In this document: one piece after another, positions 7,826 through 38,446 of the stretch
Layout of the letters: every line of letters starts with the position of its first letter
How positions within the stretch are numbered: position 1 is the stretch's first letter
Assembly (NCBI GenBank): GCA_900128565.1
Contig: LT635928.1
Coordinates: 1 to 44,779, forward strand
Direction of reading: 5' to 3'
Origin: Stramenopiles sp. TOSAG23-6
Lineage: Eukaryota; Sar
DNA length: 44,779 nt
Notes under the pieces: model-generated
Databases searched by the model: none
Told to the model about the DNA's origin: nothing
The model's input: only the letters and a program-made list of their open reading frames with translations
Program-made: the position numbers and the translations under genes

Positions 7826-10800
7826 ATGGACTCCAATACACATACAGAACATCTTCTGTCAAGTAATAGACATCTGAAAAAATGTATGGAAGAGGGTATG
7901 AGTGTTGAGCGACGAAAGGGTTTAAGCTCTCAAGAGGCTGCCGCAAGGTTGGAAGAGTTTGGATATAATGAGTTGCCAGAGAAGAAACGTAACGTTTGTT
8001 TTGAGTTCTTGGCTTACTTCTGGGGGCCAATGCCACTGATGATTTGGGTTGCGATGCTTCTGGAATTTGCGCAAGCAATAACTGGTGATTCTGAGCATTG
8101 GGCTGACTTTGTAGTTCTCTTGATCCTCCAAGTTGCAAATGGTACCGTTGCCTTTTTTGAAGAAAGGAATGCTGGAAATGCTATTGCTGCGTTAAAGGCT
8201 TCACTGGCACCTAAAGCAACTGTAAAACGAGATGGAAGATTTATGAATATCCCGGCACGTGAGCTTGTTCCAGGTGATGTGGTTAATCTTAAATTGGGTA
8301 ACATTGTTCCAGCAGATTGTGTCTTATTGGAAGGTAAACCAATGCAAGTAGACAGATCTGCTTTAACTGGAGAAAGTCTTGCTGCCACTGTAAGGTAAGT
8401 TATTTGACATCTATCAATCCATTATATGAAATGTAAATAATCGTAATGCTTATATCATTTTTTTTTATTTTTTACACTCTCAACAGACCTGGTGATACTG
8501 TAGAAATGGGCTGTACAATTGAAAGGGGTGAGTTAGAGGCTATTGTTGAAAATACTGGCGTAAATACTTTCTTTGGTCGTACAGCAATGATGTATGTTTT
8601 ATTTTTTTTCAAATTCGATTTTTTTTTTTTGGTTTCGTACTNAATTTTGTACCTAACNATTTTTTTTTGAAATATTTTTCCAAAATACATGGTTGGAGAA
8701 ACTGAAAATGTTGGTAGATTTCAAATGGTTTTATTTCGTGTGATGCTCTTCCTCATGGCAATTGCGTGTTTTCTTGTTGGTATTATACTTTTTAAATTGC
8801 TCAGTGGAAGAAATTTAACAGCTAAAGTAGTGCTACAAAGTGTTGGTGTAGCTGTAGTAATATTAGTTGCATCTATTCCTATTGCAATGCAAGTAGTTGC
8901 TACTGTAACTATGGCCGTTGGTGCTTCATTACTTGCCAAAGAAAAAGCAATTGTTGCGCGTCTTTCAGCAATTGAAGAACTTGCTGGCATGGAAATTCTT
9001 TGCTCCGATAAAACTGGAACATTAACAATAAATAAATTGACTCTTGACGACCCTATTGTAATAGATGGTAATAGTGCAAACAGACGTAATACACACAGTA
9101 AACAAGAAAGAACATCTGAATCTTTTACACTTGAACCTGAGCATATCATTTTCTATGCAGCTTTGGCAGCAAAACGAATTGAAGGAGCTGGACAGGATGC
9201 TATAGATTTTTGTATTACACAAAAAGCTTTTCAACTTGGGGAAGTTGAGCTTCCAAATGGAATTGGTTCAAGGAGTTTAAGAGACTTTGAGGAATTAGAT
9301 TTTCTTCCTTTTGATCCATTATTGAAACGCACAGAAGCTACTGTACAACCGACTAATGCACATATGTCAAAATCTCGAAGAAAATTACGAAGTAATATGG
9401 AAAATGCACATGAACTTGACCAGGTAGGGTTAGTTGGTGCCCCATTCAAAGTGACTAAAGGAGCAGCTCCAGTCATTATAGACATGTGTGTAAATGGAGC
9501 AGAAATGAAAAGTGAAGTTCTACAAGTCGTTGATAATCTTGCTGGTAATGGCTATCGAGCTCTTGGTGTAGCAGTTCATACTCCTATTGATTCAAATCAC
9601 ACTAATACAAATAAAGCAAAAGATTTGTCTGATGGAGCTTGGAAGTTTATTGGAATTCTCAGTTTGTTTGATCCTCCGAGAAGTGATACAAAAAGGACAA
9701 TAGAATTGGCCACGGAAATGCAAGTTGAAGTCAAAATGATTACAGGAGATCATGGAGCTATTGCCAAGGAGACTGCAAAAAGATTATCTATGGGTACAAA
9801 TATATTCCCCGCCGATTCATTAAAAGGTTTATCAAAAGCTGCTGAAATGAATAATGTTCCCCCCGCAATGCAGGAACTGGTCATTTCTGCGAATGGCTTT
9901 GCTGAAGTTCTTCCTGAAGATAAATTCAATATTGTCAAAGTTTTAATGGATCGTGGATATACTGTTGGTATGACTGGCGATGGTGTGAATGATGCACCTG
10001 CATTGAAGAGAGCTCAAATTGGAATTGCTGTGGAAGGAGCTACAGATGCTGCAAGGGCGGCAGCGGATATTGTCCTAACTGAACCGGGTTTGTCTACAAT
10101 TATCAAAGCTATGGTATTAAGTAGGAAAATATTTCAGCGTGTACGAAATTATTGTATTTTTCGCATTGCTGGAACTATTCAATTGATATTTTTCTTCTTT
10201 ATCGCGGTAAACTTCAAACCTAAGCAATATTTTCATTTGAGTGATGATGTATTGTCTGTAGATAATGTCTACTTACCTGTGATTGCTATTGTTCTAATAA
10301 CATTGCTAAATGATGCATGTGTACTCACCATTGCTAGAGATAATGTAGTGCCATCACCAAAGCCTCAACAATGGGATTTAGTAGAGGTGTTTGTTTCAGC
10401 TAGTGTACTTGGAGCAGTCGCTTGTATAGGTTCCACTCTCATTTTAATAATTGGTCTTCATGCAGGCAATACTGATAGATGGAACAGTAGCGCGTGTACA
10501 TTTTTTCCTGGTGAGAAAAATAATGAAGGGAAATGTGTTATTCAATATGATCAACTATTAACTGTGTTATACTTGAAGTTATCTTTAACTGATTTTATCA
10601 CTGTATTTGCTGCACGAACTCGAAACTTCTTCTTTTCTCGTGCCCCTGCCGTTGCATTATCTGGAGCATTTGTTGTAGCTACTGGATCAACATCATTTAT
10701 TGCAGGTAATGCTAAACTTGGTAAACTTATGTCTCCTATACCTATTGGTATGATTGTAATGACTTGGATATTTTCGATTATTTGCTTTCTAGTTCAAGAT

Positions 10801-10986
10801 ATTGTTAAAGTAATGACGTACAAATGTCTTGATTGTATGAGAGGGAAAACGCAAAATAATCTTGAAGAAGTTCTATGTAACGATTCACAGAACAGAAGAG
10901 TTACTGATTTAGAGAGACAAGTTAGTTTTCAACGTAATGCTACAAATAATACAGATGAGACGAAATATTCTATTTTACCCAACTAA
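7826..10986 (+). CDS. plasma-membrane H+-ATPase, P-type (P3A)
   Basis: Exons are 7826-8394, 8487-8591 and 8691-10986, giving 989 residues. The pump exports protons and energises secondary transport at the plasma membrane. Landmarks: the cation-ATPase N-domain; SALTGES actuator loop at the end of exon 1; CSDKTGTLT with the phosphorylated Asp at residue 331, almost the same position as Asp329 of Arabidopsis AHA2; MITGDHGAIAKETAKRL; MTGDGVNDAPALKRAQIGIAVEGATD split here only for length; then the C-terminal membrane segments. The C-terminal tail lacks an obvious 14-3-3 site. Intron 1 is GT-AG. Intron 2 is introner copy B, whose removal gives AMM-VGETENVG, ungapped against AHL-VDSTNQVG of AHA2. 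A start at 7748 is the alternative. Confidence 0.95.
8395..8486 (+). other. canonical GT-AG intron in H+-ATPase gene
   Basis: The 92-bp intron starts GTAAGT and ends CTCAACAG. Joining gives ATV-R-PGD, matching the P-type ATPase TGES...PGD spacing. It lacks the palindrome/TACCTAAC block of the introner family and so serves as an internal control for normal splicing in this gene. Confidence 0.93.
8592..8690 (+). mobile_element. introner-like intron, copy B (H+-ATPase intron 2)
   Basis: The 99-bp intron starts GTATGTTTT and ends CAAAATACAT. The middle carries TTTTGTACCTAAC. It contains an in-frame stop, so it must be removed. The exon join is ATGAT/GGTTGG (phase 2), fixed by ungapped alignment to plant H+-ATPases. 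A 3-base ATG repeat at the two edges allows several equivalent cut positions, none of which ends in AG. Confidence 0.9.
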
Positions 10987-11048
10987 TTGTTATCTACAAA
11001 TAGTACAGATGAGACGAAATATTCTATTTTACCCAACTAATTGTTATC
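10941..11048. repeat. 54-bp tandem duplication across the stop of the H+-ATPase gene
   Basis: Units 10941-10994 and 10995-11048 are almost identical (two differences). The first contains the last 15 codons and TAA of the ATPase; the second lies in the 3' UTR. The rest of the 10987-11289 convergent spacer is AT-rich with no other feature seen. Confidence 0.92.
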
Positions 11049-36920: not shown

Positions 36921-36953
36921 AAAAAGAGTAAAACATTGATTTTTCAAAAAAAA

Positions 36954-38446
36954 CTAATCCAACTTTCCACGCTTCTCCTTCTTTGTTTTTGTTTTTGTTT
37001 TTATCTTTGTTTTTGTATTTTCATTTACCTTTTTCAAATTTTTTCCTTTATTTTTTTGGTCTCTGTGAGAAATATTCTTTAAATAACTTTGTGACGTCAT
37101 TTCGTTGACCTCCTTCGGATGTTCTTTCGCCCATGATAAAGATCTTGGGTATATAACTTCCATCAAATTAGTATACCATCCATGGTTATAAATATTTTTA
37201 ATTTCAACTCCTATCAGTTTTACAAATCTCTCTGGGATCTGATGTATTATAAAAAAATATTTCAAACATTTGAAATTCGTTAGGTACAAAATTTCGTATA
37301 TGAAAAAAAAATAGATTTAAAATTAATTTTAAAATGAATGATAAAAACAAACATGATATTCTTCAAAATTTGGATTATCTCCACGACGCATTGCATCCTC
37401 TCGAATCTTTTTATTTCTCTTTGTTAAAAAATTAGCCTTTTCTATGAAATACTTCAAATCATCGTATTTATATCCTTCATTTGTCGTCATATTTCGAAGA
37501 ACTAAAGAAAAATGATAAAGTGTAAATACAAATATGACAACACCCATTACTGACGCAGTTATGCATAGACCCATCATATAATTATACTTACTTAACATGA
37601 ATCTAAAAACTATGAGTACTGTTGCTTGTGTTCGCTCTCCAGTGATAGCACTCCGAAACGTTGCTTCAAATAAATTGAGATCGTGAACAATCGATAGTAA
37701 AGTCATGTATTGTGAAAAAACACGACATCACAAAAAAACATCGTTAGGTACGAAATTTCGTACGAAAAAAAATTGAAATTGAAAAAAAACAAAAAAACAT
37801 ACATACCAATCGCCCAGCCACCATACATTAACAATAGCGAAGAACTCAAGATAAATTGTAAGAAATACCAATGGTTTTCTTCCCCAACTGGTTGGGCAAT
37901 CCACCCACAATAATGATCATATCTGGAAACATTTACACCCATTATTGAACAAAATTTAGAACGCGCTGGTTTTCGAAAACCAGCGGTACGGCAAACGTCG
38001 GGGTAATATATTTGTTGGTCGTATTCATAATTGTCAAAACGTCTGTGTGTAATACTTGTAATATATCCTGGTTCTTTTGAGCACGCCTGGTAGAATTTAA
38101 ACAATGTATAGAACATTAATCCTGTCCATAAGATTTTGTGTATTTCGCCAACATACTTATTTGGAACCATAGGGAAAACTGTAAACATTGCAATACCCCA
38201 ACCTCCGAGAATGAGACCAAGGTACATAATTTGCAACACAGGATTTCGTTGTTTGAACATATAGTGAAAAGCATTATAAGCATATGTAATCAAAAAGCCT
38301 AATCCTACTGATCTGAGAATTTTTTTCAAATAATGACCAAGGCTAAAAAATGATCTATTCAAAAAGTTATCCTGCGACGTGCACATGACAACGTAAAAGC
38401 TCGTCAAAATTGACAGAATGATAAATGCAGGCACAAGAAGCGACAT
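36954..38446 (-). CDS. DHHC-family palmitoyltransferase, DHYC variant with degraded zinc ligands
   Basis: Exons are 37803-38446, 37353-37704 and 36954-37241, 427 residues, start at ATG 38446. Several membrane segments flank the catalytic loop: VCRTAGFRKPARSKFC, SIMGVNVSRYDHYC, GWIAQPVGEENHWYFLQF. The catalytic Cys is retained in DHYC, a form also used by yeast Akr1. However, several zinc-ligand positions of the CCHC/DHHC domain are replaced: CxxC to CRTA, the HC His to Phe, two later Cys to Met and Asn, and the Cys after DHHC to Pro. The C-terminal NIYNHGWYTNLMEVIYP fits the PaCCT motif. A Lys-rich tail follows. Overall closest to ZDHHC4-like KPARSKHC proteins. Two introners interrupt it. Confidence 0.85.
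37242..37352 (-). mobile_element. introner-like intron, copy I
   Basis: 111 bp, the longest copy: GTTTGTTTTT start, TACGAAATTTTGTACCTAAC block, TTTTATAATACAT end. Joins EEYH/QIPERFVKL in phase 0 and places the PaCCT motif in frame. Ends in AT. Confidence 0.88.
37705..37802 (-). mobile_element. introner-like intron, copy H
   Basis: 98 bp: GTATGTTTT start, perfect 16-bp palindrome GTACGAAATTTCGTAC followed by CTAAC, CACAATACAT end. The exon codon AT+G joins WAIG-M-TLLSIVH (phase 2). An adjacent upstream GT (four bases earlier) is an alternative, but GTATGTTTT is the family start. An ATG repeat flanks it, as in copy B. Ends in AT. Confidence 0.9.

Follow-up and report, generated by a model that had tools for sequence, protein, structure and literature searches.

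How is the 3′ end of an intron defined when the intron does not close on AG? The question is raised by the 44,779-nucleotide contig LT635928.1 (contig C386) of Stramenopiles sp. TOSAG23-6, assembly GCA_900128565.1, which was analysed over its whole length and is called the window below. Several of its genes are interrupted by copies of one short repeat of the introner type, which begin with GT and which the first-pass annotation took for a GT-AT intron class with AT as its fixed 3′ signal. We favour another answer, to which we give a probability of about 75%: the introners form a family resembling miniature inverted-repeat transposable elements (MITEs), of the general form GT...NN, which inserted into exons, are removed from the RNA and have their 3′ end after the right-hand copy of a duplicated target. 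This reading is built on direct observations, namely the repeat family itself, its flanking duplication, restoration of the reading frame, uninterrupted homology across the junctions, a strand bias and the conservation of a branch motif.

All eight copies for which GT...AT joins had been predicted (B, C, D, E, G, H, I and J) are present, with the joins at the predicted place; the lengths first given are correct (C 97, E 94, G 100, H 98 and J 98 nt), and the frame is restored in 8/8. On the forward strand, copy B (8592..8690, AT^GTATGT...AAATACAT^, with carets marking splice positions) lies within a P-type H+-ATPase gene; of the 120 listed homologues, 119 have no residue between the two sides of its junction, and the remaining one is a public gene model discussed below. 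Removal of copy C (17150..17246, GG^GTATGT...CAATATAT^) fuses two open reading frames (ORFs) into one of 1326 amino acids, while copy D (25173..25265, 93 nt, AC^GTACAT...CAAAACAT^) is diverged. Copy E (34964..35057, AT^GTACGT...AAATATAT^) belongs to an MFS transporter gene whose N-terminal part is RING-like. On the reverse strand, the joined ORF at copy G (32276..32375, AT^GTACGT...CAATATAT^) has 1001 amino acids, copy H (23687..23784) reads GT^GTACGT...CTATACAT^, and copies I (37242..37352, AT^GTTTGT...TAATACAT^) and J (37705..37802, AT^GTATGT...CAATACAT^) share a DHHC gene, whose Pfam DHHC match scores 87 bits with both removed versus 65 bits when they are read through.

Two features had escaped the first-pass annotation: copy F (35197..35297, forward strand, TT^GTATGT...TTTTTCACAGAACTT^, branch motif TACCTAAT) ends in TT, and the dinucleotide before the GT is usually identical to the one that closes the element. 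At the end of copy F, TTTTTCACAG^AACTT^CGT, a CACAG lying 5 nt upstream of the TT end is skipped. Taken as acceptor, CACAG^ produces an immediate stop and TTTCAG^ a reading that runs into stops, so that the AG alternatives fail here, as had been claimed. The TT end alone restores the MFS motif GWIIASFQFGQLISSYSWGQICDKWGRKP, and the alignment is ungapped at the junction in 12 homologues. With E and F removed the protein matches Pfam MFS_1 at 77 bits, whereas reading through F gives a piece without any match. The interval 34349-36811 seemingly forms a single gene that joins a RING-like zinc-finger segment to the MFS transporter.

The frame was then followed in a sample of 310,422 bases, which includes the window and for the rest consists of stretches chosen mostly around copies. 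Anchoring on TACCTAAC gave 162 distinct candidates, 135 of them above the end-motif score and 134 with sufficient flank; the coding frame was called from codon usage over 90 nt on each side, without use of the junction, and was confident on both sides in 86. The element removed ran from the GT through the two bases past ..ATAC, the NN end. At this end 79 of the 86 copies are in frame, compared with one third expected (p = 7e-30), the other two phases receiving 4 and 3 copies; an alternative anchoring that also scored AT itself gave 84/88. Lengths are spread over the phases (24/79 are multiples of 3), and 3/79 copies would be open if left in. A Pfam search with 10 of the 79 spliced fragments, a non-random choice made mainly for unequal left and right dinucleotides, returned 3 matches, two of which (UDPGP and C2) span a junction. 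The right dinucleotide is AT in 55/79 of the frame-restoring copies and AG in 4/79, and GT, TT, AA, AC and GC ends restore the frame as well. The earlier interpretation stands as regards non-AG ends, U2-type 5′ and branch signals and the place of the join; the fixed GT-AT class falls as the whole story, given GT/GT, TT/TT, AA/AA and AG/AG copies.

The ends of a single insertion go together. Left and right dinucleotides are equal in 56/79 copies, whereas in 20,000 permutations the number of equal pairs averaged 35.9 and never exceeded 48; neighbouring positions are without clear covariation (30 vs 28.6 and 37 vs 34.7 expected), and, to the eye, the choice of T or C at donor position 4 does not follow the right end. 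Over the whole assembly (8,027,113 bases, 408 contigs), TTCGTACCTAAC has 347 exact sites against 4 for the reversed-pattern control, and seven strict end-to-end patterns have 586 matches against 0 for their reversed controls. These counts, which are not fully independent because contigs C4, C58 and C13/C14 look palindromic or duplicated, divide by left/right dinucleotide into AT/AT 473, TT/TT 32, GT/AT 30, GT/GT 20, TT/AT 18, AT/AG 10 and AT/GT 3, with an odds ratio of 105 for the AT-GT covariation. Such covariation within insertions is that of a 2-bp target-site duplication, and the common AT ending follows from insertion at AT. The base before the duplication is mostly C (31/79) and the base after it mostly G (36/79), preferences that suggest C-AT-G as the favoured target. 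The consensus ends are inverted, GTAT.../...ATAC, over 4 nt, or 6 nt with an AT duplication. The element proper reads GTATGTTTT...AATAC around a central near-palindrome, GTACGAAATTTCGTAC (59/79 copies within three mismatches), and its 3′ region is conserved as TATTTTT(T/C)(C/A)A(C/A)AATAC.

Some loci are particularly rich in copies. L018 (G000:C18) carries a dense introner cluster at about 3200-9700, where some copies are apparently nested or in tandem (two branch motifs, near 7034 and 7097, are separated by some 60 bases) and one introner holds a telomere-like CCCTAACCCTAACCC run near 8977 on the minus strand. On the minus strand of L026, from 6982 on, eight introners occupy one gene, one of them GT/GT.

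When 11 copies, B and F among them, were compared with homologues, the protein proved uninterrupted at the junction in all 11. Best alignments cover two copies in SHMT and one each in GlnRS, threonine synthase (TT/TT) and diaminopropionate ammonia-lyase; three alignments cover three copies in UDP-GlcNAc pyrophosphorylase, one of them TT/TT, and motif extraction shows the L013 copy uninterrupted in 33/33 homologues. L013 and L060 are the clearly informative copies as to which duplicate stays exonic. At L013, the Cys of WDCLRHYE (GGWDCLRHYEII), found in 33/33 homologues, needs the left-hand TGT, the right dinucleotide giving Tyr; repetition of neighbouring bases leaves the exact cut uncertain over -1 to +2 bases. 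At L060 (1345), keeping the right dinucleotide creates a stop. Both fit retention of the left dinucleotide, which makes a cut before the GT and after the right-hand duplicate the natural one. A cut two bases leftward, giving an intron that starts with AT, ends with AC and takes in the left dinucleotide, would be indistinguishable by sequence in the 56/79 copies with equal dinucleotides, and the base before the last dinucleotide is indeed C in most copies. Yet the two informative loci reject it, one by its 33 homologues and the other by the stop, and the GT donor would fall out of register; we regard such a cut as very unlikely. U12-type AT-AC introns have a ATATCCTT-like 5′ site and, near the 3′ end, a TTCCTTAAC branch site. 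Here the 5′ consensus is GTATGT/GTACGT and the branch A lies 30-54 nt (median 41) from the element end, a disposition that does not fit the U12 type.

The signals at the 5′ side and at the branch point look U2-type, as the first-pass annotation had it, and agree with the GT donor and YTRAY branch site of U2-type introns. The donor is GT in 69/79 frame-restoring copies, and the branch motif TACCTAAC, exemplified in copy B by 8650..8657 of the forward strand, is found in 52 of the 61 copies detected by their ends alone; a TAA core persists in seven of the nine without it, while Ns obscure one and the last lacks such a core. As a control, CTAAC occurs in 4/61 upstream stretches. With respect to the coding strand, 84 of the 134 copies are in sense orientation, 1 is antisense with a weak score and 49 are unclear. 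This bias argues for removal at the RNA level, which is how the introners appear to be removed, judging from sequence. Elimination from the DNA would be the alternative: the internal eliminated sequences of ciliates have 2-bp duplications, inverted ends and precise excision, all traits that the present elements resemble. Symmetric ends would, however, be excised in either orientation, in contrast to the 84 sense copies and 1 weak antisense copy, and the branch-site motif and the U1-like 5′ site are conserved, so that elimination from DNA seems to us extremely unlikely. Spliceosome-independent introns of the euglenid type, held together by pairing of their two ends, come to mind because short inverted-repeat ends flanked by short direct repeats are also described for euglenozoans in passages of PMC12621601. 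End pairing is nevertheless present in 22/79 folds and is not locus-specific, with a mean of -2.91 kcal/mol for real ends and -2.96 kcal/mol with partners swapped; the GT donor and the branch motif are also kept, which leaves this type a very slim chance.

Several observations weigh against a GT...NN family removed by splicing after the right-hand duplicate. The frame disagrees in 7/86 confident copies, among which L022 and L024 look mis-anchored by the script, and a well-formed AT/AT copy, L047 324 (G000:C34, AT^GTATGT..ATACAT), is not restored to frame, which might be due to a sequence error or to the use of another site. Donors other than GT occur in 10/79 copies (AT 5, GA 3, GC 1, TT 1), and the homologue alignment of copy E is not clean at the junction. 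Searches with the U2/U6 families and with U2/U6 core patterns found nothing, a result that shows no absence, the family searches having matched no control genome either. As for the 3′ end, left and right dinucleotides are unequal in 23/79 copies, and right-hand AT is over-represented beyond the duplication (30 strict copies with left GT and 18 with left TT, against 3 with left AT and right GT). In 14 copies a YAG follows the branch A at a distance of 11 nt or more, and 3 of them could use it in frame; a looser scan, in which any GT could pair with any AG so long as both lay no more than 45 nt from the coding edges, found a frame-consistent GT-AG pair in 32/61 introner gaps, compared with 28/99 other gaps.

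The excess of right-hand AT is where the first reading retains a point, AT being commoner there than duplication alone predicts. Either AT is the better, selected 3′ end or the insertion sometimes brings AT along. Were AT itself the favoured 3′ end, the 55/79 copies ending in it would be accounted for, and the disparity between GT/AT plus TT/AT and AT/GT copies would suggest a right end drifting to AT. L013 could be read in the same way, since its exonic TGT encodes the conserved Cys, so that the left GT looks ancestral and the right one seemingly became AT. Against this stand the strict GT/GT and TT/TT copies, 20 and 32 in number, as well as copy F and two further TT-ended copies with uninterrupted homology, and we consider a preference for AT as such an unlikely explanation of the ends.

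The AG sites were also considered at an unchanged donor. Where an AG follows the branch motif, as in 27 copies, joining at the first one keeps the frame in 8; for the first AG past the element end the figure is 27/78, and both are at chance level. Given the pairs found by the looser scan, many single copies leave room for an AG acceptor if frame is the sole criterion; in the copies tested, homology excludes it. If the introners were ordinary GT-AG introns that had been mis-joined, with the nearby AGs as true acceptors, a frame-keeping AG would be available in many of them provided that both sites move. The chance-level figures for the fixed donor speak against this, as do the 11 checked copies in which homologues require the NN end and the immediate stop after CACAG in copy F; we attach next to no weight to it. 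At L023 1744, a TTTTTTCAG lying 7 nt before the element end is out of frame and skipped.

Returning to the GT...NN family, its history may be pictured as follows. A short non-autonomous MITE-like element, with GTAT...ATAC ends and a GTACGAAATTTCGTAC-like palindrome, would insert into an exon, preferably at C-AT-G, and duplicate the 2-bp target. With it would come GTATGT or GTACGT as 5′ splice site and TACCTAAC as branch site; with an intron ending after the right-hand target duplicate, splicing would return the sequence as it was before insertion. No AG would be needed, the 3′ end being two bases past the conserved transposon end given above, and good nearby AGs would be skipped. We infer that the U2 spliceosome removes the introners and that their 3′ end is set by the terminal motif or by its distance from the branch point, perhaps via a dedicated U2AF-like factor. 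We accordingly favour a U2-type spliceosome that uses AG for the few old introns and the position after the transposon end for introners. The more specific proposition, which we rate at even odds, is that the 3′ site is set by position, two bases past TTTTTCAMAATAC^NN, that any duplicated dinucleotide works and that good AGs lying a few bases upstream are ignored, probably through a specialised 3′-end recognition factor of the host, which also seems to splice a few ordinary GT-AG introns. Two introns of the latter kind are convincing by eye. One lies at 8182-8284 of L028 and the other in the window at 8395..8486 of the forward strand (AAG^GTAAGTT...CTCAACAG^A), within the same ATPase gene as copy B, with frame and homologue match across it.

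In the open-licence PubMed Central literature we found neither these introners nor any class of GT-AT introners described; five papers containing a GT-AT phrase have titles that do not concern introners. The introners of Gozashti et al. 2022 (PMC9860276), whose main text contains none of the words MAST, stramenopile and noncanonical, are likewise many similar introns per genome, with terminal inverted repeats, target-site duplications and unchanged mRNA length. Introners that take splice sites from the target duplication are already known, one architecture there carrying the 5′ site and borrowing the 3′ site from the duplication; to judge from the passages, however, the co-opted 3′ site completes an AG, whereas here the duplication has 2 bp and reads AG in few copies. 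The present family likewise shows sequence-similar introns at many gene positions, a target-site duplication and terminal inverted repeats. The non-canonical introns and introner elements of Amoebophrya A25/A120, as depicted in passages of PMC7789003, likewise have ends other than GT-AG, spread in a transposon-like manner and carry inverted repeats internal to short direct repeats at their borders, but their ends are variable and signature-free, with direct repeats of 3-5 nt and inverted repeats of 8-20 nt, and U1 was not detected. The family described here has GT and a strong branch motif, with the 3′ end alone being free, a 2-nt repeat and 4-nt ends, which sets it apart from the Amoebophrya type. 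These two systems, as far as the excerpts go, are its closest kin. In the chordate Fritillaria borealis, according to passages of PMC13326754, most introns of the genome undergo U2-type splicing at non-canonical 3′ ends. Duplicated subunits of U2AF recognise these ends, which may serve as a model for the present case; unlike here, no target-site duplication is tied to the intron end in those passages. Euglenozoan non-canonical introns, in the passages of PMC12621601 cited above, share the flanking short direct repeats and a possible MITE origin, but lack GT and have their ends joined by pairing, which is not locus-specific in our copies. Set against relatives known from abstracts and passages, the occurrence in a stramenopile of an intact GT and branch site together with a 3′ end that is free and defined by the duplication appears to be new. 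Such a combination takes the two halves of intron recognition apart, with 5′ and branch signals left intact and a 3′ end that needs no AG, so that AG recognition (U2AF35, Slu7, Prp8 and scanning from the branch point) becomes testable by a natural experiment. It would also offer transposons a route to becoming introns at almost any AT, with no AG required in the target.

The window ATPase matches the EukProt protein GSMAST32.ASY1.ANO1.823.1 at 274 of the 279 aligned residues of the part compared, and the source is very probably, on sequence grounds, an uncultured marine stramenopile (MAST). The public model of this protein, the exception noted at copy B, translates into the introner, carries the introner-derived residues MMYVLFFFKFDFFFLV and then exits by an apparently forced junction. 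Because this model reads through the element, MAST gene sets may hold false introns and inserts. In a second EukProt protein (P0002), TFFFFFSMM is found at a nearby place, perhaps from an introner in a related species.

As to the remainder of the window, its edge (1..51, forward strand) bears a truncated introner copy recognised from sequence, with the branch motif and right end only. An Rfam search of the window found nothing, and a PDB search with another window gene gave no match. On the minus strand, a long arginine-serine repeat tract at 43461-43892 lies inside an ORF of 884 amino acids.

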